From a virus: a DNA stretch of 21,876 nucleotides. Under the pieces are notes generated by a model. It searched no databases, was not told the origin of the DNA, and was given only the letters and a program-made list of their open reading frames with translations. Numbering within the stretch: the first letter of the stretch is position 1; each line of letters opens with the position of its first letter. Location: positions 1 through 21,876 of the IMG/VR virus record IMGVR_UViG_3300042197_001133; one strand, written 5' to 3'. Made by a program: the position numbers and the translations under genes. Shown in pieces: positions 4,160 to 15,180 of this stretch.

Positions 4160-4462
4160 ATGAACGCCAAGGTTTTATCTAGTTTAGAAAAAAGTTACAT
4201 CCAATTAGATTGGAAAGATTATATTTGTAAAATAGAAATGACGGCGGAACAGATGGTTAAGATTATTGATTTAATCGAAATTTTCAAAAAAATCAAAGGA
4301 ACTAAAGAATTGGTTGTATTTAGATTTGAAGGAGTACCTGCATACGTTACTGTTAAGAAGGAAGAGTATAGTTCGATATTAGATTGGATACATCAGAGAA
4401 TGATAGATTTTGAACTCTTTGAGCAATGTAAACGAATCAATGATATAGTGAAATCTTTATGA
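4160..4462 (+). CDS. Hypothetical protein, 100 aa
   Basis: I do not recognise this protein. It starts MNAKVLSSLEKSYIQLDWKD, is mixed alpha/beta by inspection, and has an amphipathic helix (QMVKIIDLIEIFKKIKG, about 31-47). It has two Cys (23 and 90) and no clear motif. It ends IVKSL, only loosely like the C-terminal tails of the downstream enzymes. The stop overlaps the next start (ATGA), so it is translationally coupled to the zinc-ribbon-like gene. It is the first gene after the divergent promoter. Confidence 0.7.
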   Translation: MNAKVLSSLEKSYIQLDWKDYICKIEMTAEQMVKIIDLIEIFKKIKGTKELVVFRFEGVPAYVTVKKEEYSSILDWIHQRMIDFELFEQCKRINDIVKSL

Positions 4463-4695
4463 ATAAAGCATCAGAGATATTTTTAAGTTGGAGAAGAGCG
4501 GCAAATCCAACACCAGAGCAAAGTATATTAGCCGGAAAACGATACACTATTTGTCAAACGTGTCCATCAAAAAAACCTTCAGTAGTATTTACAGAGATAT
4601 GTGGCGAATGTGGATGCCCATTGGGTAAAAAGATATTCACACCTGTTATGGGTAGTTGTGATTTAAAAAAATGGAATAGTGTAGAAAATTTATAA
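4459..4695 (+). CDS. Zinc-ribbon-like small protein, 78 aa
   Basis: Two Cys clusters are visible: C32-x2-C35 (ICQTCPSKKP) and C48-x2-C51-x-C53 (ICGECGCPLGKK), with another Cys at 67 (GSCDLKKW). This can bind one zinc as a compact ribbon. Small proteins of this look are familiar in T4-like phages, usually without assigned function. The N-terminal 25 residues form a helix. It overlaps the preceding gene by four bases (ATGA) and lies seven bases before the isomerase gene. A role in binding protein or nucleic acid is possible; nothing shows an enzyme. Confidence 0.7.
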   Translation: MNKASEIFLSWRRAANPTPEQSILAGKRYTICQTCPSKKPSVVFTEICGECGCPLGKKIFTPVMGSCDLKKWNSVENL

Positions 4696-5219: not shown

Positions 5220-5804
5220 ATGAGAATACTAATAATAGCAATGGGTAGAAGTGGTGGGTATTCTTTACTTCATTGGATAGGTTGGGAAAAAAAATATCAA
5301 ACTATCCATGAACCAACAATGGATAATGGAGATATATTAAGTATCTATAAAATGAAATTATTGGCTAAAAATAAAAATAATACGGTAGTAAAATATTTAA
5401 TTAGTGAAATAGAAAATGAATTAAATACATTTGATTGGAGTAATTGGGATAAAATTATTGGGTTGATACGGAATGATACGAGAGAGTGTGCTATATCTCA
5501 TTGCTGGGCGTTAGATTCGGATAATTGGAGAGAATCGTATGAAATACCCAACGAATGGTTAATAGAAAATGAAAGAATAATAAAAGATGAGGAATCTAGA
5601 CTAATAAAAAATAAAGAAATAATATCCAATATTCCACAAATTGAATTATTATTATCGTATGAGAATATATATCAAAGTAATACGGATATTGATAAATTAG
5701 CTGAATATTTGGAAATTCAAAAAATAAATTCATATTCCCTATTAGATAGTAGAAATAGATTACGAAATGTAATTGATATTAAATCAAAAAGAAGTTTAAT
5801 TTAA
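5220..5804 (+). CDS. Sulfotransferase-like protein 1, 194 aa
   Basis: Sulfotransferases move sulfate from PAPS to a hydroxyl or amine. The N-terminal strand-loop-helix (MGRSGGYSLLHWI, residues 8-20) resembles the 5'-phosphosulfate loop. IGLIRNDTRECAISHCWA (about 80-97) resembles the 3'-phosphate-binding segment, and LLSYENIYQ (about 143-151) matches the usual late YED/YEN motif. The loop is a variant: GGYSL rather than GSTSL. The last residues are KSKRSLI, the first clear case of the C-terminal tail shared through this operon. It lies 16 bases after the isomerase gene. PAPS binding is inferred by family; the acceptor is unknown. Confidence 0.7.
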   Translation: MRILIIAMGRSGGYSLLHWIGWEKKYQTIHEPTMDNGDILSIYKMKLLAKNKNNTVVKYLISEIENELNTFDWSNWDKIIGLIRNDTRECAISHCWALDSDNWRESYEIPNEWLIENERIIKDEESRLIKNKEIISNIPQIELLLSYENIYQSNTDIDKLAEYLEIQKINSYSLLDSRNRLRNVIDIKSKRSLI

Positions 5805-5847
5805 AACAATCATATTTATATAAGAATACACATATAAAAAAAACAGT

Positions 5848-8094
5848 ATGAAAGGAACACTATTTTCCGCAGATTTTGTAAAAGACTCAATTGGTAATTT
5901 GAGATTATTAGAATTAAATACCGATACTGCATTTACAAGTGGTGCATTATCTCATGTTAATTTTACTGATTTTGTAAATGTATTATCTACTAATACTATC
6001 AATGAAGTTCACATAATTGGTAAACCAATGCATGAAAATTTTATCGAGTATTTATCTCAAAGTTTACATACATTGGGATTCATTGATACATTTTCAAAAA
6101 CCATAGAAAGTGCAAATACTATATATCCAACAATAGTTGAAGATAGTTCCACAAAATTTATATTAAGATGTGCATACGATGAATCTGCTATATTTGATTC
6201 AACTTATTGTAAACAAAAAGAAGAAATTTTTAGTTTGTTTTATGATAATAATGATACCGGTTCTCTAGCAGAATTTTATATATCCTCATCAAATTTGAAT
6301 ATAGATTGTTTAAGAAAAGAAAACAATTCTCAATTTATACCCGATGTGGCTGTTAAAGATATAACAAACGTACACGATGGTATTCAGTTTTATAAAATAC
6401 ATGGAAGCGGTAGTTCAGAACAAAATTTTTTAAATTTTATAGAAGAAATTGGTAATAATAAACTTATTACTAACTATTATTTCAATGATATTGATACCAT
6501 ACAAACTTCATATAGGTCATTCAATATTATTTATGGAGCTAATCTTGATGTTCTGAATCTCACAAATGTTATAATTCCTGCCGTATTTGAAAAACCAAAT
6601 TTTATTGAATATAATGAAAATTCCAATTTTACATTAATTGATGTAAAACATTATTATGAATTTACAACGAATTACCCATTATTTAAAGGAGTTGGTACAT
6701 ATGGTGGTATATTTGAAGATGAAACTATAACTGATATAAATGGGAATTCAATTTGCGTTGCAAGTGCATCCATAGGTAATATTTACAAATCTTTATTTAT
6801 TGCGGGTTCACCTGATACCGATAATAGTTTTGAATTTATGGCTTGGTCTAGTTCAGGTAGTGAATTACCATCTGGTTCTTTTATAACTTCATCTGTATTA
6901 GTTAATTCTATTAAACACGATTTAAGAAAAAAATTAATAACTCATATAATAACCGAAGATTCCGCTTCATTTAGAATAACATCAAATCAACACCTATTAG
7001 TGTATGATTCCATTTCTGATACTTTAAGATATAAATTTGTTAATGAAATTGATACTGCAACTGATTTTTTATTACGTGATAGTGGTGGGTTATCTGCTAT
7101 ATCTTCTAATGAAATAGAAGTTTTAGAAGATACACATTTTACATATGTACTTGATTTTGAAAGTGTAGATACATATCTTCTACATGATAGTGGGGTAAAT
7201 ATCAAAGTTGTAGCACATAACGCATGTTTTCCAAAAGGAACTCGAATTACTCTTGAAAACGGAGAAATAAAAAATATTGAAGACATATTAGAAGGAGATA
7301 CTTTAATTTCATACGATACTTATAATAAAATTTTTACAACAGGTAGAGTTAGTAAATTAAATATATCAAATCAAGCAGGTCTAATTCATTTAAAAACAGA
7401 TTCTAACCACGAATTGAAGTTAACACTTGGTCATAGAATTTATTCAAATAATAAATGGGTAGAGGCCAGAGAGTTAAGGATGGGAGATGTTTTAGTTAAT
7501 TCTAATGGAGATGTATGTAAAATTATTTATCTTGAATTTATTGAAGGAGAGTTTGATGTATATCATATTTTAAATGTAGGTAATGACCATACTTATTTTG
7601 CGAATCAAATTTTGGTGCATAATTACTCACACAATCAATTCTGTTTCATAGCTGGTACACAGATTTCAATGGCAGATAGTTCTGAAAAAAATATCGAAGA
7701 TGTTTTAATAGGTGAAGAAGTATTATCTTACAATGAAGAGACGGGAGTAATTGAAGCTAAAAAAGTAACTAAATTAAATTCACCAATTCATGATGATTTA
7801 GTAGAATATACTTTATCAAATGGAATCAAAATAACTTCAACTTTTGACCACCCATATTATGTAAATGGGTTACATCTTGCATCTTATCAACCAAATTGGA
7901 CAAATGAAAGATATGATTTATTAAGTGAAGTTGCTAAAATAAAAGTTGGTGATTTAGTTAATTTAGTAAATAAAGAAAACGTACAAATTTTATCGATTGC
8001 AGAATTAGATAAAGTTGATACCCAAACATATATTATTTCAGTGGAAGATAACAAAAACTTCTACGCTAATAAAGTTTTAGTTCATAACAAATAA
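5848..8094 (+). CDS. 748-aa protein with three tandem Hint (hedgehog/intein) modules
   Basis: Residues 1 to about 280 form a domain I cannot place with certainty. DSIGNLRLLELNTDTAF (residues 14-30) resembles the E-x-N-x-D-T segment of glutathionylspermidine-synthase-like ATP-grasp enzymes (weak). Three Hint modules follow. Module 1 (about 287-458) lacks the Cys (Gly287 in its place) but keeps SxxH (379-382) and ends VVAHN. Module 2 (460-592) starts C-F-P-K-G-T, has T526-L-G-H529, and ends LVHN followed by Tyr593. Module 3 (599-747) starts C-F-I-A-G-T, has T665-F-D-H668, and ends LVHN plus one Lys. Linkers are one residue (Ala459) and six residues. With no Cys/Ser/Thr after either inner HN, self-cleavage rather than splicing is expected. 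It is the largest gene of the operon, and the enzymes around it may be its partners. Confidence 0.8.
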   Translation: MKGTLFSADFVKDSIGNLRLLELNTDTAFTSGALSHVNFTDFVNVLSTNTINEVHIIGKPMHENFIEYLSQSLHTLGFIDTFSKTIESANTIYPTIVEDSSTKFILRCAYDESAIFDSTYCKQKEEIFSLFYDNNDTGSLAEFYISSSNLNIDCLRKENNSQFIPDVAVKDITNVHDGIQFYKIHGSGSSEQNFLNFIEEIGNNKLITNYYFNDIDTIQTSYRSFNIIYGANLDVLNLTNVIIPAVFEKPNFIEYNENSNFTLIDVKHYYEFTTNYPLFKGVGTYGGIFEDETITDINGNSICVASASIGNIYKSLFIAGSPDTDNSFEFMAWSSSGSELPSGSFITSSVLVNSIKHDLRKKLITHIITEDSASFRITSNQHLLVYDSISDTLRYKFVNEIDTATDFLLRDSGGLSAISSNEIEVLEDTHFTYVLDFESVDTYLLHDSGVNIKVVAHNACFPKGTRITLENGEIKNIEDILEGDTLISYDTYNKIFTTGRVSKLNISNQAGLIHLKTDSNHELKLTLGHRIYSNNKWVEARELRMGDVLVNSNGDVCKIIYLEFIEGEFDVYHILNVGNDHTYFANQILVHNYSHNQFCFIAGTQISMADSSEKNIEDVLIGEEVLSYNEETGVIEAKKVTKLNSPIHDDLVEYTLSNGIKITSTFDHPYYVNGLHLASYQPNWTNERYDLLSEVAKIKVGDLVNLVNKENVQILSIAELDKVDTQTYIISVEDNKNFYANKVLVHNK

Positions 8095-8107
8095 ACAAAA
8101 TAAAAAA

Positions 8108-8248
8108 ATGGCGAACGTATATAAAAAAACAACTCATAATCAAATACAAAATAGATTAATTGAAAAAGTAAATCAATCTACAAGTAATTCAATGAATTCT
8201 ATAATTTTAAATTTTATAAATTATTTTAAAATAAAACATTTAAATTAA
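8108..8248 (+). CDS. Small Asn/Lys/Ile-rich protein, 46 aa
   Basis: The frame begins MANVYKKTTHNQIQNRLIEK and ends FKIKHLN-TAA. It is Asn-, Lys- and Ile-rich with no Cys. It lies 13 bases after the Hint gene and 10 bases before the oxygenase gene, which fits an operon member. No family is recognised. It could be a small accessory protein or, speculatively, a peptide acted on by the modifying enzymes. Because the local DNA is extremely A+T-rich, a chance open frame is also possible. Confidence 0.45.
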   Translation: MANVYKKTTHNQIQNRLIEKVNQSTSNSMNSIILNFINYFKIKHLN

Positions 8249-8258
8249 ATTATAAATA

Positions 8259-8786
8259 ATGTCATCTGTTATATTTTCAAAGAACGATTGTGATTTTATA
8301 AAATCTTATTGGGATGATACTAAAAGTTTAAATGGTTCTGGTAGAATTTCTTTTAAAATCGATGAGGTAAATACTATATCATACAACAGAAAGGTAAATG
8401 GGTATTACATTGATTATAACGATACTATTCTTTTAAATTTTATTTTAGAAAGATTGCAGAAAATCAATATTAAATCGATAACACCCGCGTATGTAAAAAT
8501 TGCTAAATATAAAAAGGGTGATTATTTTGAACCACATCATGATTTTAATTTTTATGGTAAGGGTTCGATTTACAAAACTTTGGTGGTACAGCTATCGGAT
8601 GCATCAACTTATATTGGTGGTGATTTATATGTCAAAGGTGTTTCACAACCGAGAGAACAAGGTTCCTATTCTTTATTTTTCAGTTCAGATATACATGAAG
8701 TAAAATTAGTGGAAAATGGTATTAGATTTAGTTTGACTATATTTTTACAAGAAACTGATTTTATTAATACTAAAACTCTCATATAA
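8259..8786 (+). CDS. 2OG-Fe(II) oxygenase, prolyl-4-hydroxylase type (copy 1)
   Basis: Enzymes of this fold hydroxylate peptide or other substrates using iron, oxygen and 2-oxoglutarate. The iron ligands are visible: H93-x-D95 in YFEPHHDF and H146 in SSDIHEVKLVENG. R156, ten residues after the distal His, fits the 2-oxoglutarate carboxylate contact. GGDLYV (120-125) is the usual strand between them. The length of 175 aa is that of compact phage P4H-like proteins. It ends NTKTLI, a copy of the cassette tail. It starts 10 bases after the 46-aa frame. The substrate is unknown; a virion or surface protein is a reasonable guess. Confidence 0.85.
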   Translation: MSSVIFSKNDCDFIKSYWDDTKSLNGSGRISFKIDEVNTISYNRKVNGYYIDYNDTILLNFILERLQKINIKSITPAYVKIAKYKKGDYFEPHHDFNFYGKGSIYKTLVVQLSDASTYIGGDLYVKGVSQPREQGSYSLFFSSDIHEVKLVENGIRFSLTIFLQETDFINTKTLI

Positions 8787-8800
8787 AATATAATATATAA

Positions 8801-9397
8801 ATGAAAATAGTTGTAATCGCACCTCCTAGAACGGGCTCTACATCATTGTTAACTTCATTATCACAGAGTTTAAATTTAAAGGTTATAACTATACCCGAAT
8901 CGTATATATATCCAGATAACTTTAAATTAATTGAACACGCTATTAATAGCGATAATGTGATTGTTAGAACTGGTATTAGAGTGAATCATGGATTTCCAAT
9001 ACAAGATTTTTTAAAATTTTTTGATTATACGATACTATTATCAAGAAAAAATAATGATGAACATAAAATAAGTTTTGCTAATTTATACTATAAACATTTT
9101 TATACTAATACCGGATATCACAATGTATATACTAAAGATGAATTACCAAATACAATGTTTCAATCAGAGCATTTTATTTCTTATTTCAATAATAATATCA
9201 TAATTGAAAAACAATTTATAAAAGAATTATCAGATAAAGAGAGTATACCTATTATATATTATGAAGATTTATACCAATCATCTGCTGGTCCTCAATTAAT
9301 AAAAAATTTAATTCCGGAATTAAATTTAGATAAATTCTTAAATTGTATATCAAATACAAAAAAAATAAGAATTAATTTAGAAAAAAAAATTATATAA
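8801..9397 (+). CDS. Sulfotransferase-like protein 2, 198 aa
   Basis: The start MKIVVIAPPRTGSTSLLTSL gives a canonical strand plus 5'-phosphosulfate loop (PRTGSTS, 9-15). YTILLSRKNNDEHKISFANL (about 76-95) fits the 3'-phosphate segment (Arg, then Ser in the following helix), and PIIYYEDLYQ (about 150-159) is the late YEDL motif seen in Stf0-type enzymes. Length is short for the family (often 230-300). It ends LEKKII, the Ile version of the cassette tail. It is 14 bases after the oxygenase gene and 16 before the next sulfotransferase, whose N-terminus is closely similar, so the two may be old duplicates. The acceptor is unknown. Confidence 0.75.
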   Translation: MKIVVIAPPRTGSTSLLTSLSQSLNLKVITIPESYIYPDNFKLIEHAINSDNVIVRTGIRVNHGFPIQDFLKFFDYTILLSRKNNDEHKISFANLYYKHFYTNTGYHNVYTKDELPNTMFQSEHFISYFNNNIIIEKQFIKELSDKESIPIIYYEDLYQSSAGPQLIKNLIPELNLDKFLNCISNTKKIRINLEKKII

Positions 9398-9413
9398 TAA
9401 TTTATATACTAAT

Positions 9414-10049
9414 GTGAGAATTGCAATACTAACATCTCCAAGAAGTGGCTCCACTAGTCTTTTTAAATTAATTGAAGAGCATTTAATTAAGGAAGATTAT
9501 ATATCAATATCAGAGCCATTTACTTATTATTTTAAAGTAAGAAAATATTCTAATCCAGATATTTTTAAAGATAAACATAATGTTTTTATTAAAACTTTTA
9601 TAGGTGATAAACATATTCCAAAATTTTTTAAAAATGATGTAGATTTATATTGGAATTGGTTTTTTAATTATTTTGAAAAAATTATTATTTTAGATAGAAA
9701 AAATAAACAATTACAAAGTGAAAGTTTAACATATCAATTAAAGAAAAAAAATTATGAAAATTGGCATAAAAAAAATTATTATGATTTAACTAATATTACA
9801 AAAGAAGATATTGAGCACACTAAAAATATTTTAATAAAAGATTCTGAACAAAAACATATAATTTCTAATAAAGGATATCCTATATTTTATTTTGAAGATA
9901 TTTACATTAAAAAGGATAGAAAAATAATTGATTTTTTGTTTAAATATATTAATTTAAATCTTAATGAAGCACTATATGAAAAATATATTATATCAGATAC
10001 TTTTAAAGTTAGAGTAGAAGATAATTATGAAAAAAATAAATTAATTTAA
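9414..10049 (+). CDS. Sulfotransferase-like protein 3, 211 aa
   Basis: It begins with GTG at 9414; the overlapping ATG at 9412 hits a stop at once. MRIAILTSPRSGSTSLFKLI shows the PRSGSTS loop (9-15) of PAPS-dependent sulfotransferases. IIILDRKNKQLQSESLTYQL (about 91-110) fits the 3'-phosphate segment, and PIFYFEDIYI (about 159-168) is the late (Y/F)ED motif. The DNA is among the most A+T-rich in the window, with Lys, Asn and Ile predominating. The end is EKNKLI, the cassette tail. It follows sulfotransferase 2 by 16 bases and precedes the second oxygenase by 12. Confidence 0.75.
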   Translation: MRIAILTSPRSGSTSLFKLIEEHLIKEDYISISEPFTYYFKVRKYSNPDIFKDKHNVFIKTFIGDKHIPKFFKNDVDLYWNWFFNYFEKIIILDRKNKQLQSESLTYQLKKKNYENWHKKNYYDLTNITKEDIEHTKNILIKDSEQKHIISNKGYPIFYFEDIYIKKDRKIIDFLFKYINLNLNEALYEKYIISDTFKVRVEDNYEKNKLI

Positions 10050-10061
10050 ATAATTTTTATA

Positions 10062-10544
10062 ATGATAAATTTTACAAAAGAAGAATGTAACAAAATAATA
10101 TCATTATCAAATTTATTTGAAAAACATTCATCAAGTGAATGGTCGGAAAGTAATGAGACTATTTATTTTGCCTGGCACATAGAAAGAAACGAGGTAACTG
10201 AATGGGTGTTTGAGCGGTTATTAAATTATATTAAAATGAATACCAATATCACATTAAACAAACCACTCAATGTGATTCATTTACAGAATGTACAAATAGG
10301 AAACAAGTTTGAACCTCATATTGATAAACATAGTTTATATAACATAGGTGTATGTTTAAATAATGATTATGAAGGGGGAGAGTTAATTTGCTATAATCCA
10401 AAATTTATTGTACCTAAAATTGCCGGAAGTATTTATACCTTTTATGGTAGTAAATTACATGAAGTGACAGAAGTTACAAAGGGTGAACGATGGTCTCTAA
10501 TTGCGTTTTTAAGTAAAGAATCACTACCGAATAAATTACTATGA
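10062..10544 (+). CDS. 2OG-Fe(II) oxygenase (copy 2), 160 aa
   Basis: The double-stranded beta-helix core is recognisable: H86-x-D88 in FEPHIDKH and distal H133 in KLHEVTEVTKGERWS supply the iron ligands. R143 sits ten residues further as the 2-oxoglutarate anchor, and GGELI (105-109) lies between. It differs strongly from copy 1 outside these motifs, so it likely has its own substrate. It ends LPNKLL, a member of the cassette tail set. Its stop overlaps the ATG of the radical SAM gene (ATGA), so the two are probably made together. Confidence 0.85.
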   Translation: MINFTKEECNKIISLSNLFEKHSSSEWSESNETIYFAWHIERNEVTEWVFERLLNYIKMNTNITLNKPLNVIHLQNVQIGNKFEPHIDKHSLYNIGVCLNNDYEGGELICYNPKFIVPKIAGSIYTFYGSKLHEVTEVTKGERWSLIAFLSKESLPNKLL

Positions 10545-11590
10545 TTGATAAGTCAAAATATATATGTACGGCACCATTTTTTTTTACGGAAGTGGAAGAT
10601 AATAAACAATTTTTGTGCTGTCCATCTTGGCTACCAGTTGATATAAATGATGGTAATGGAATAGTATCTAGTTTTAATTCCCAAATTTCTGAAAAAATAA
10701 GAGATAGTGTAATTGATGGTAGTTATAAATACTGCAATGAAGTCTTATGTCCGTATTTAGCAAGTTTAAAAAGTAATAGAGTTCCTTCTAAATTTATTCC
10801 TAATACACAGGAAAATGTTGATTTTTTACAAAAAGAAAAAAAACCTAAAGTAATTAATTTTACGTTCGATAGAAGTTGCAATTTTCAATGTCCATCTTGT
10901 AGGGTAGAACTAATAAATTATAAAGGAAAAGCAAGATTATCTGTAGAAAAAAAACTAACTGAAATTAACGATGAAATATCACCGTTCGTTGAACGACTGG
11001 TATTAAGTGGTTCGGCTGACCCATTTTTCTCAAAATCATTCAGACAGTTTCTTATTACATTGGATTCAAATAAATTTAAAAAATTAAAATCAATTCACTT
11101 ACATACAAACGGTTCATTATGGACTCCTGAAATGTGGGAGAAAATGAGTGGTATACATCGTTATGTTAATACTTGCGAAATTTCAATAGATGCCGCTACG
11201 AAAGAAACATACGAAACTAAAACGAGACTTGGTGGTAATTGGGAAGTGTTGCATGAAAATTTAAGTTTTATAACAAAAATACCAACAATTAAAGAATATA
11301 TTTTTTCATTTGTGGTACAGGATACTAATTATAAAGAAATGTATGATTTTTATAAAATGATTAAATCATATATGGATAAAAGAGAAACTAAAGTAAAATG
11401 GGATGTTAGAACCAATGTAATTTCTGATTGGGGTACGTTTAGTGAAGCTGAATTTAAAATTAAAAATGTAGCAAATCCAGAACATTCAGAATACAATTTG
11501 TTTTTGTTAGAATTGGATAAAGTTAAAAATATTCCAAATGTATTACATAATTTTCATCATTTATACGAAACTGAAAAAACTTTAATTTAA
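10541..11590 (+). CDS. Radical SAM enzyme with N-terminal SPASM-like Cys module
   Basis: Radical SAM enzymes cleave S-adenosylmethionine at a [4Fe-4S] cluster to start radical chemistry. The cluster motif is C113-x3-C117-x2-C120 (SCNFQCPSC), followed by a barrel with LVLSGSADPF and SIHLHTNGSLW. Unusually, a Cys-rich stretch lies before it: C9, C26-C27 (LCCPSW) and C65/C70 (YCNEVLCPYL). This looks like the SPASM-type auxiliary-cluster region, which usually lies after the barrel. The length is 349 aa. It ends ETEKTLI, the cassette tail. It is coupled to the oxygenase upstream and lies two bases from the hydrolase downstream. Related enzymes act on peptides or sugars; the substrate here is unknown. 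Confidence 0.85.
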   Translation: MIDKSKYICTAPFFFTEVEDNKQFLCCPSWLPVDINDGNGIVSSFNSQISEKIRDSVIDGSYKYCNEVLCPYLASLKSNRVPSKFIPNTQENVDFLQKEKKPKVINFTFDRSCNFQCPSCRVELINYKGKARLSVEKKLTEINDEISPFVERLVLSGSADPFFSKSFRQFLITLDSNKFKKLKSIHLHTNGSLWTPEMWEKMSGIHRYVNTCEISIDAATKETYETKTRLGGNWEVLHENLSFITKIPTIKEYIFSFVVQDTNYKEMYDFYKMIKSYMDKRETKVKWDVRTNVISDWGTFSEAEFKIKNVANPEHSEYNLFLLELDKVKNIPNVLHNFHHLYETEKTLI

Positions 11591-11592
11591 AA

Positions 11593-12243
11593 ATGGCAAC
11601 ACTTTGGACTTTTGGTGATTCAATGACTTTTGGACACGGATGTGTATTAAACTATGAAGGAGATGCCTATTATAAACAATATAAAAAAAACGATGATGAT
11701 TTAATTTGGCCTGTTCTATTGGCTAATAGATTGGGTTATGAATTAAATAATTTAGGCAAATGTGGAGCATCTAATGATTATATATTTGATAAAATAATAA
11801 GTAATTATCATTTGATTTCAGAAAACGATATTGTAATTGTTAATAAAACTTTTTCACATCGATTTGATATACCATCCGTTACTCCAGATGAATTTTATAC
11901 TATATGTGGGGAGGTAGTCAAATCCGAAACGGGATACAAAACTACAATTAAAAATAAAGAAGAATATGAAACTATTCTTAATTTTTCATATTATTTCAGT
12001 GGGCACGAAGTATATCGTAAACGTCACGAAAAAAGATATGATTTTTTAAAATCTATAATAAAATGTTATAAATATTTTGAATTTTATACCCAAACCATTT
12101 GGGAGGATTCACGTGCACAGAATATAAAAGATGCTACCAAAGGTAAAATGGAAGATTACCATTTAAGTTTTCTTGGACACAAACAATTCGCCAATTATGT
12201 ATACGCATCATTATTTAATAAAGATGGTAAAAAGTTATTATAA
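11593..12243 (+). CDS. SGNH/GDSL-type hydrolase, 216 aa
   Basis: This fold hydrolyses or transfers esters, often acetyl groups on sugars. Block I is clear at FGDSMTFG (7-14, nucleophile S10). LGKCGASND (54-62) supplies the Gly and Asn (N61) of blocks II/III. MEDYHLSFLGH (186-196) is the block V region with H190, but the Asp three residues before the His is Glu187 here, with Asp188 next to it, so the catalytic pair is slightly altered. WPVLLANRLGYELNNLG is typical of the phage members. It ends GKKLL, the last protein with the cassette tail. It starts two bases after the radical SAM gene; a new promoter follows. Confidence 0.8.
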   Translation: MATLWTFGDSMTFGHGCVLNYEGDAYYKQYKKNDDDLIWPVLLANRLGYELNNLGKCGASNDYIFDKIISNYHLISENDIVIVNKTFSHRFDIPSVTPDEFYTICGEVVKSETGYKTTIKNKEEYETILNFSYYFSGHEVYRKRHEKRYDFLKSIIKCYKYFEFYTQTIWEDSRAQNIKDATKGKMEDYHLSFLGHKQFANYVYASLFNKDGKKLL

Positions 12244-12303: not shown

Positions 12304-12618
12304 ATGATTATATTACCGCAGAATCCAATAACCGAAAATAGCTTCAATAGATGGAAGTGTCATAAAATAGAAATAGAAGATGGTATAGATTCATACCATT
12401 ATTACATCATACCATTGGTAGATATAGATGAAGATGATATAGAAAATATAGAATTTGCTCCAGTACTATTCAGTTCCGAATCTGATGAATTTTTTGATGA
12501 AAACGGAAACACTATTTACACTGTCCGATTGTTTGATGATGATTTGCCTGAATTAACTACCGAAGAAGAGGTTGAGATTCTGTATGAAATACTAACAAAG
12601 AAAAAACTTTTTATGTAA
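12304..12618 (+). CDS. Acidic hypothetical protein, 104 aa
   Basis: I do not recognise this protein. It is strikingly acidic (VDIDEDDIENIEF at about 39-51; SSESDEFFDENG at about 57-68; LTTEEEVEILYEIL near the end) with only a few Lys at both ends. The charge pattern could mimic DNA or bind a basic partner, as in phage proteins that block host DNA-binding enzymes, but that is only an analogy. There is no Cys pair and no membrane segment. It stands alone between two promoters, so it is probably a single-gene unit, and it ends KKKLFM, not the cassette tail. Confidence 0.65.
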   Translation: MIILPQNPITENSFNRWKCHKIEIEDGIDSYHYYIIPLVDIDEDDIENIEFAPVLFSSESDEFFDENGNTIYTVRLFDDDLPELTTEEEVEILYEILTKKKLFM

Positions 12619-14097: not shown

Positions 14098-15180
14098 ATG
14101 AATTGGTTAAAAGTATTAGTGGGGTTATCTGCTATTATTATAGCCGGATGTGCTGCTTATTTCTCTGTAACTGGATTAGGTGTTCTTTTTGCAGGAGCAT
14201 CTACATCTGTTATAGTGATGGCATCCTCGTTGGAGTTAGCTAAATTAGTTGCTGCAACATATTTAAAACAAAAATGGGATGTAATCGGTGGATTTAACAA
14301 ATGGTATCTTACACTTTCAGTAGGAGTCCTTATGTTAATCACCTCCGCAGGTATTTTTGGATACCTTTCTAATGCTTTTCAGGCACAATCTCTTCAGTTA
14401 CAACAGGTAGATAGAGAAATTGAAGTTCATCAAACTAAAATTGACCAAAACACTGCTCAAATCACTCAACTTTCTACTCAAATTAGTGAATTTAATACCA
14501 ATCAAGGTAAAATTATCGATGGAGGTACGGTAAATTCTCGTTTACTGCGTTCAATTGATGCTAGAGATAAAGAAATCAGTAAAATTAATGATAAAATTTC
14601 AATTTTACAAGAAAAAAATGCAGCCGAAACCGAAAAAATTAACGAAATTAAGGTTACTAACCTAGATTTAGAGAAAGAAGTGGGTGGATTTCGATTTGTA
14701 GCAGAGGCATTTGATATAGAATTGAAAAATGTAGTAAAATTCTTCATATTTTTGATTGTAATTGTGTTTGACCCACTCGCAGTTGCTCTAATTATCGCAT
14801 TTAACGGATTAATTTCTGATAAAAAAGAAAAAGAATACGAAGTATACGGTGATAAAGAAAAACAAAGAGAACTTCTTAAAGAAATCATACAAGCAGATGA
14901 GAAAGATGGTTTGTATGATGATTGGGATGTAACTTTGAACGACGGATTGGAAGATAAACCAACGGTAAATGAAGATATAGTAGAAAATCCCCCTAAAGAA
15001 GAAGAAGAATTACCGAATTTAAAATGGGAAGAGTATATGCATCCCGAATTTCCATGGAATAATCGTAAATTGTGGATAAATAATCCAAAAGCGGTAAATT
15101 ATTGGTTAAATACTAAAAAAGGGAGTGTTAGAGATTTAGCTAGATTTCGTACAGAGGATGAAAATATCAAAGTTTACTAA
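14098..15180 (+). CDS. Membrane protein with periplasmic or cytoplasmic coiled coil, 360 aa
   Basis: Three hydrophobic helices near the N-terminus (about 4-22, 27-55, 70-92) are followed by a long heptad-type coiled coil (about 95-195; LQQVDREIEVHQTKID and on). A fourth helix (about 212-238, FFIFLIVIVFDPLAVALIIA) comes next, then a soluble acidic tail of about 120 residues with an aromatic block (PEFPWNNRKLWINNPKAVNYW). I do not recognise a named family. Such proteins may anchor a complex at the inner membrane during infection; a lysis or superinfection role is possible but unsupported. It follows the 60-aa gene by one base, and a new promoter follows. Confidence 0.75.
   Translation: MNWLKVLVGLSAIIIAGCAAYFSVTGLGVLFAGASTSVIVMASSLELAKLVAATYLKQKWDVIGGFNKWYLTLSVGVLMLITSAGIFGYLSNAFQAQSLQLQQVDREIEVHQTKIDQNTAQITQLSTQISEFNTNQGKIIDGGTVNSRLLRSIDARDKEISKINDKISILQEKNAAETEKINEIKVTNLDLEKEVGGFRFVAEAFDIELKNVVKFFIFLIVIVFDPLAVALIIAFNGLISDKKEKEYEVYGDKEKQRELLKEIIQADEKDGLYDDWDVTLNDGLEDKPTVNEDIVENPPKEEEELPNLKWEEYMHPEFPWNNRKLWINNPKAVNYWLNTKKGSVRDLARFRTEDENIKVY

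Follow-up and report, generated by a model that had tools for sequence, protein, structure and literature searches.

Why should seven consecutive enzymes of unrelated folds end in the same few residues? The question is raised by a 21,876-nt stretch of viral DNA (IMG/VR virus record IMGVR_UViG_3300042197_001133, positions 1 to 21,876; hereafter the window), in which a cassette at positions 5220-12243 encodes three sulfotransferase-like proteins, two 2-oxoglutarate (2OG)-Fe(II) oxygenases, a radical SAM protein and an SGNH/GDSL-like hydrolase, together with a protein carrying Hint domains and a 46-amino acid (aa) protein. In gene order the enzymes end in RSLI, KTLI, KKII, NKLI, NKLL, KTLI and KKLL. 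The same short C-terminus, borne by unrelated folds and conserved at the protein level, has the look of a C-terminal targeting tag. The best explanation, which we favour with restrained confidence, is that it recruits enzymes to a phage peptide-modification system, the most likely partner being the cassette's own protein with an ATP-grasp-like N-terminal domain (N-domain) and a degenerate Hint domain (Hint0).

C-terminal tails of the cassette enzymes

A sequence-only reading of the window had proposed that all seven enzymes end in [KRN][KTS][LI][LI], and the re-read open reading frames (ORFs) match this pattern exactly. As that reading also held, proteins outside the cassette end differently, the pattern matching 0/19 other genes of the window (Fisher 1.5e-6), and the Hint protein and the 46-aa protein lack the tail, ending in HNK and HLN. 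The HSVI end of a GmhA-like protein, which had been counted as a loose match, is invariant in all close relatives and lies outside the pattern. The tetrapeptide rule itself survived as a shared tail but proved looser than stated, with Leu or Ile (and some Phe, Met or Val) at -2 and -1, usually Lys, Thr, Ser or Asn at -3 and usually Lys or Asn at -4; the consensus is K/N at -4, T/S/K/N at -3, L more often than I at -2 and I more often than L at -1. The gene after the cassette (window 12304-12618) ends in KKKLFM or KKKLFI in relatives, close to the tag without matching it.

The region has a G+C content of 18-28%, which favours Lys, Ile and Leu, and the tail might accordingly reflect chance, A+T-rich coding, or a DNA or RNA element lying over the stop codons. 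Calculated from each gene's own composition, the chance of a match is 1-4% for [polar][LI][LI] and 0.1-0.3% for [KRN][KTS][LI][LI], giving joint chances over the seven enzymes of ~1e-12 and ~1e-19, respectively. Relatives were gathered by searching IMG/VR for radical SAM and Hint proteins, the locus set comprising 94 distinct loci on uncultured phage contigs, and the pattern recurs in ~90 loci. In four long related contigs the tag was found in 15/28 cassette genes vs 25/667 genes (3.7%) elsewhere (Fisher 3e-13); since some of these 25 look sulfotransferase-, oxygenase- or SGNH-like at their N-termini, the true background is probably lower. After removal of near-duplicates, the genes at positions +1 to +4 downstream of the Hint gene carried the tag in 16/22, 11/22, 15/22 and 11/20 cases (53/86 in total), the reference being an internal tripeptide rate of 1.65%, and in the larger group of loci whose carrier gene lacks Hint modules (the Hint-less group) the values at +1 to +8 were 66, 78, 75, 75, 62, 54, 56 and 51%. 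Composition-matched or background rates of 1.7-3.7% are thus far below the cassette rate, and the earlier view that A+T-rich coding is insufficient is upheld. The tag Leu/Ile codons of the window do differ, as had been noted (TTA, CTC, ATT, CTA and ATA), and the seven enzyme ORFs stop at TAA or TGA; across relatives all three stop codons follow the tag, and the codons at -2 and -1 mirror usage within the same genes save for a mild excess of ATA at -1. Because these codons follow ordinary usage, selection is on the protein, and a DNA-level repeat or stop-codon element is ruled out by the ordinary codon use and the varied stops; a scan of five related contigs with a degenerate DNA pattern gave no match. 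Chance, base composition or a nucleic acid element can practically be dismissed as the source of the tail.

Single enzymes of the cassette are swapped for unrelated ones in relatives, and the replacements bear the same tail, so that a comparison of C-termini among homologues in similar cassettes finds the tail kept while the genes themselves change. Together with the low background, this strongly supports the proposed shared signal, acting at the protein level, and since unrelated, swapped genes have convergently gained the tail time and again, something in these genomes must require it. In the alignment of the 2OG oxygenases the last core strand is followed by a linker of variable length and then by the tail, whereas the homologues from cultured cyanophages stop at the core strand and none is tagged; in eleven cyanophage stretches fetched, 1/92 genes had the tag and that gene was not an oxygenase. 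The 2OG-Fe(II) oxygenase clusters of cyanophages (Kyanoviridae) resemble the present cassettes in having runs of oxygenases in variable regions, but they are without the tag and no ATP-grasp-like gene was found in them. These comparisons also bear on the idea that the tail is a C-terminal degron or protease handle for host ClpX or Tsp/Prc-type proteases. ClpX C-motif 2, as in MuA (...RRKKAI), consists of basic residues followed by two aliphatics, which the tag resembles; a degron would leave unexplained both its restriction to one class of enzymes in genomes with the ATP-grasp-like gene and its absence from the cyanophage homologues, and we consider this role very unlikely.

Tagged families identified by Pfam include 2OG-Fe(II) oxygenase, radical SAM, SET-domain, methyltransferase, GDSL-type and Asp/Asn-hydroxylase-like proteins, and several further tagged families gave no database match. 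For other tagged proteins the label sulfotransferase-like denotes only a motif resembling the 5'-phosphosulfate-binding (PSB) loop, plus a weak match to the CurM sulfotransferase, their alignment being too diverse for scanning. Several cassettes have nearby a gene for adenylylsulfate (APS) kinase (Pfam E 2e-17), an enzyme that would supply sulfotransferases with 3'-phosphoadenylylsulfate (PAPS); examples are the kinase genes at L187:396-824 and L041:1599-2030, beside cassettes with sulfotransferase-like proteins, and an APS-kinase-like sequence was detected by motif in 48/214 loci; this proximity suggests real PAPS-dependent sulfation. One tail thus occurs in uncultured large phages on at least a dozen unrelated peptide- or protein-modifying enzymes, in genomes that also encode the ATP-grasp/Hint protein with its precursor-like appearance. 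This suggests that the tail is a previously unrecognised tag by which a phage system for peptide tailoring brings its enzymes together.

Among individual cases, tagged phage SET-domain proteins are encoded at L198:8285-8668 (PF00856 E 1.7e-11) and L020:3121-3558 (PF00856 E 0.0015). A small Cys-motif protein (window 4459-4695) is untagged, and its homologues in Hint-less loci are tagged KTLM, KTFL or KSLI (e.g. L178:1813-2112). The downstream cassettes of the Hint-less loci L190-L264 also include a recurrent untagged protein that ends in NFWFH or FWFYR in many loci.

The putative carrier protein that accompanies the tag

It had been supposed that the tag is read by the Hint protein. This stands in part: many tagged cassettes have no Hint gene nearby, and since genomes without a Hint module keep the tag, the Hint modules are ruled out as a necessary reader; what does accompany the tag is the ATP-grasp-like N-domain with Hint0, adjoined by a small ORF. 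When 20 Hint-negative tagged contigs were searched with the first 300 residues of the window Hint protein, an N-domain homologue was found in 18/20, in most cases as a protein of ~500 aa with no Hint module; the remaining two have this cassette too but break off next to it. Tagged and untagged homologues of the SGNH hydrolase and the 2OG oxygenases were also compared, contigs of 10-12 kb being uninformative. In contigs >25 kb the tagged homologues share their genome with an N-domain gene, even at a distance of ~210 kb (in a 289-kb contig), and no N-domain gene was found in contigs bearing untagged homologues. No N-domain match was obtained in a 26-kb contig where the SGNH protein is untagged though its neighbours are tagged, or in two contigs, of 28 and 51 kb, with an oxygenase that ends in the near-miss RSML. 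The carrier (N-domain plus Hint0) is therefore favoured as the reader, being the component common to tagged genomes. At -3, Thr or Ser occurs more often in the Hint-less group (196/326 vs 59/147) and tracks the type of carrier rather than that of the small ORF, which hints at the carrier as reader, a comparison of sequences confounded by ancestry and by the mix of enzymes.

The same co-occurrence bears on whether the tag serves to load these enzymes as cargo into the virion or into a compartment made by the phage. Known C-terminal targeting tags include peroxisomal PTS1, encapsulin cargo-loading peptides and PDZ ligands, the first two of which load unrelated enzymes elsewhere, and the phage tag is like them a short C-terminal peptide common to unrelated enzymes; it differs in sequence, has no known receptor and occurs in phages. 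Packaging would fit this precedent and the presence in Hint-less loci of the tagged small Cys-motif protein, which has no Pfam match, but the gene that tracks the tag is the ATP-grasp-like one; none for a capsid or shell was found to do so, and this alternative appears unlikely.

The AlphaFold model of the full carrier of the window shows the N-domain, Hint0 and two Hint modules (Table 1). As full-length Foldseek searches were swamped by Hint matches, the N-domain was folded and searched alone, giving E. coli YjfC (7uk6; E 7e-6, probability 1.00) as the sole PDB match below E 0.001. The model is consistent with a circularly permuted ATP-grasp fold, although with a TM-score vs YjfC of only 0.3-0.4 the placement of the domain is uncertain. 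In 36 N-domain sequences from both groups D9, E22, N24, T25, R107, D111, D117, Y120, P165 and K170 are invariant; they include the metal-binding D...E-x-N motif (D9/E22/N24) with the D-to-E spacing of 13 found in YjfC (D103-E116-N118), and a weak hhalign alignment places residues 8-70 on YjfC 102-164. The N-domain thus resembles the ATP-grasp peptide ligases YjfC/YgiC and GspS of E. coli in predicted fold, motif and spacing, and differs from them in being fused to Hint domains or to a Cys-rich peptide and in having Ser or Gly where the RxD of YjfC/YgiC has its Arg, two residues ahead of the motif Asp. A search of PDB sequences with the N-domain profile gave nothing significant, three of the four weak matches being ATP-grasp D-Ala-D-Ala ligases aligned at the E-x-N strand. 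N-domain homologues were absent from the cultured phages of INPHARED (at the protein level), and a search of 84,980 bacterial and archaeal genomes gave, at the sensitivity used, no carrier homologue.

Hint modules 1 and 2 have a Hint fold with an N-terminal Cys and a C-terminal HN, and Hint0 keeps the HN but not the Cys. The modules resemble BIL and intein structures, the best Foldseek match being the BIL2 domain of the Tetrahymena BUBL1 locus; as in BIL domains and BUBL proteins (T. thermophila BIL2, 6y75) they stand in tandem around short segments, but these segments are of 2-12 aa with no ubiquitin-like segment, Hint0 is without the N-terminal Cys, and the modules are absent from many members. 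In place of the Cys, Ser or Thr at +1 of splicing inteins, module 1 is followed by Tyr in the window and by Lys, Leu, Arg or others in homologues, and module 2 by Lys alone. In loci L014-L055 the linkers between modules consist of ~2-12 variable residues flanked by HN and Cys, and such linkers could be excised as very short peptides.

In the 64 loci of the Hint-less group the carrier consists of the N-domain, Hint0 (again without N-terminal Cys and with the final His-Asn conserved) and a C-terminal segment. This segment, delimitable in 54 carriers (L175-L186, L190-L264), spans 23-56 residues, of which 18.5% are Cys (vs 0.5% in the leader), and the Cys number 4, 6, 8 or 10, an even count in 54/54 (the leader control giving 17 even and 37 odd). 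In close pairs leader identity was 82-94% vs 29-88% for the core (e.g. leader 0.85, core 0.3-0.5). Judged from these sequences, the Hint-less carrier looks like a precursor whose product is linked in pairs, by disulfides or otherwise. The marks of a ribosomally synthesized and post-translationally modified peptide (RiPP), namely a ribosomally made precursor in which the leader is conserved and the core hypervariable, are apparent in the Hint-less group, not in the window's own protein. With few exceptions, an ATP-grasp/Hint gene is directly followed by an ORF of 25-52 codons, which automatic detection picked up in 86/94 loci and visual inspection in L014 and L056. Its products have in common a helix-like core and an almost invariant end, KH[LST] or ANS, and are a second candidate partner of the tag.

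A different role for the carrier would be that of a ligase joining an amine (polyamine or amino acid) to each enzyme at its -Leu-Ile-COOH, the tag carboxylate being the substrate. YjfC, the nearest match by fold, now carries the annotation peptide-spermidine ligase (Pederick et al. 2023, as cited in PMC12270671 and PMC12568646). Ligation would also suit a conserved feature that is exactly the C-terminus, and the small ORF product too has a near-invariant C-terminus. The missing Arg of YjfC/YgiC speaks against this, the fused precursor-like core would be left unexplained, and such ligation seems rather unlikely.

Table 1. Features of the window cassette, by position in the window
Feature	Position	Strand	Basis or remark
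Sulfotransferase-like protein 1	5220..5804	+	PSB-loop-like MGRSGGYSLL, family alignment; ends SKRSLI; no Pfam match
C-terminal tag RSLI, sulfotransferase-like 1	5790..5801	+	
ATP-grasp-like/Hint protein, 748 aa	5848..8094	+	Gene accompanying the tag in the long tag-bearing contigs tested
N-terminal domain, ~residues 1-275, GspS/YjfC-like, apparently circularly permuted ATP-grasp fold	5848..6672	+	AlphaFold2 pLDDT (predicted model confidence) 75, Foldseek
E-x-N ATP-grasp motif DFVKDSIGNLRLLELNTDT, residues 9-27	5872..5928	+	Conserved-residue alignment, YjfC spacing
Degenerate Hint domain Hint0, ~residues 285-458, without N-terminal Cys, ends VVAHN	6700..7221	+	
Hint module 1, C460 to HN592	7225..7623	+	Pfam PT-HINT/Intein_splicing; Foldseek BIL2 6y75 E 4e-11
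Six-residue linker YSHNQF between Hint modules	7624..7641	+	Length (~2-12 aa) and sequence vary in homologues
Hint module 2, C599 to HN747, then one Lys	7642..8088	+	Pfam, AlphaFold model
Small conserved ORF, 46 aa	8108..8248	+	Directly 3' of the ATP-grasp/Hint gene
2OG-Fe(II) oxygenase 1	8259..8786	+	PF13640 E 2e-8; ends NTKTLI
C-terminal tag KTLI, oxygenase 1	8772..8783	+	
Sulfotransferase-like protein 2	8801..9397	+	Family alignment, weak CurM sulfotransferase match of family profile; ends LEKKII
C-terminal tag KKII, sulfotransferase-like 2	9383..9394	+	
Sulfotransferase-like protein 3	9414..10049	+	GTG start; family alignment; ends EKNKLI
C-terminal tag NKLI, sulfotransferase-like 3	10035..10046	+	
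2OG-Fe(II) oxygenase 2	10062..10544	+	PF13640 E 7e-8; ends LPNKLL
C-terminal tag NKLL, oxygenase 2	10530..10541	+	
Radical SAM protein, extra conserved N-terminal Cys	10541..11590	+	PF04055 E 8e-8, alignment; ends TEKTLI
C-terminal tag KTLI, radical SAM	11576..11587	+	
SGNH/GDSL-like hydrolase	11593..12243	+	GDS motif in alignment; tagged relatives match Lipase_GDSL; ends DGKKLL
C-terminal tag KKLL, SGNH/GDSL-like hydrolase	12229..12240	+	

Outside the cassette, window 14098-15177 encodes a 360-aa protein that is kept in relatives and gives a weak match to an Rz-like spanin profile (phrog_739, E 1.7e-4).

A putative tag-recruited peptide-modification system

Under the favoured explanation, a tag of the form ~[KN]-[TSKN]-[LI]-[LI]-COOH would mark unrelated tailoring enzymes as members of one system and recruit them to a common partner. 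The ATP-grasp-like/Hint0 protein of the same locus would be the carrier, precursor-like and bearing a hypervariable disulfide-type peptide at its C-terminus in most lineages. Hydroxylating, sulfating, methylating or other enzymes would dock on this carrier by their tails and modify the attached core; Hint-type asparagine cyclisation at the conserved His-Asn would then set this core free. The tag and its conservation as protein, its reuse on unrelated swapped enzymes, its co-occurrence with the ATP-grasp-like gene, the predicted fold, the even-Cys cores and the small ORF were observed, and from them we infer that the enzymes dock, which protein is the partner, what is modified and that the core is released.

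Several points weigh against this explanation. Its main weakness is that co-occurrence at the genome level cannot separate function from shared phage ancestry; the tag and the ATP-grasp-like gene could have been co-inherited in one phage lineage, with another protein as reader. About a third of cassette positions are without the tag, and the carriers of the window group end in tandem Hint modules and not in a Cys-rich core. The similarity to YjfC consists of a predicted fold and one motif, and no N-domain sequence reached the cut-off of Pfam GSP_synth (PF03738), the best value being E 0.057 in 1/22 members. As this cut-off was missed and the YjfC Arg is absent, the N-domain is called ATP-grasp-like by fold and not a proven family member or active ligase.

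Proteusin- and borosin-type RiPP clusters have the core fused to a large leader or to an enzyme domain. The phage loci are similar in that a carrier with a hypervariable C-terminal core lies beside oxygenases, radical SAM proteins, methyltransferases and other tailoring enzymes; they differ in that the leader is an ATP-grasp-like and degenerate Hint protein encoded in phage genomes, the modification is putative, and the recognition element is apparently on the C-termini of the enzymes and not only in the leader. No paper describing a matching RiPP class or cluster in phages was found, subscription journals being outside the search. It is possible, if short of probable, that these loci represent an undescribed and widespread phage system in which an ATP-grasp-like and Hint carrier with an even-Cys peptide and a tiny partner protein drafts K-x-L-I-tagged enzymes, its chemistry being changed by swapping enzymes.

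If this is true, a C-terminal tag of three to four residues would turn unrelated enzymes into one pathway, a plug-in rule for biosynthetic chemistry, and the combination of tag, ATP-grasp/Hint gene and small ORF would provide a simple sequence test by which to find further systems and to probe what their peptides do. Uncultured phages, with no cultured representative found here, would then be the source of a large family of disulfide-type peptides.

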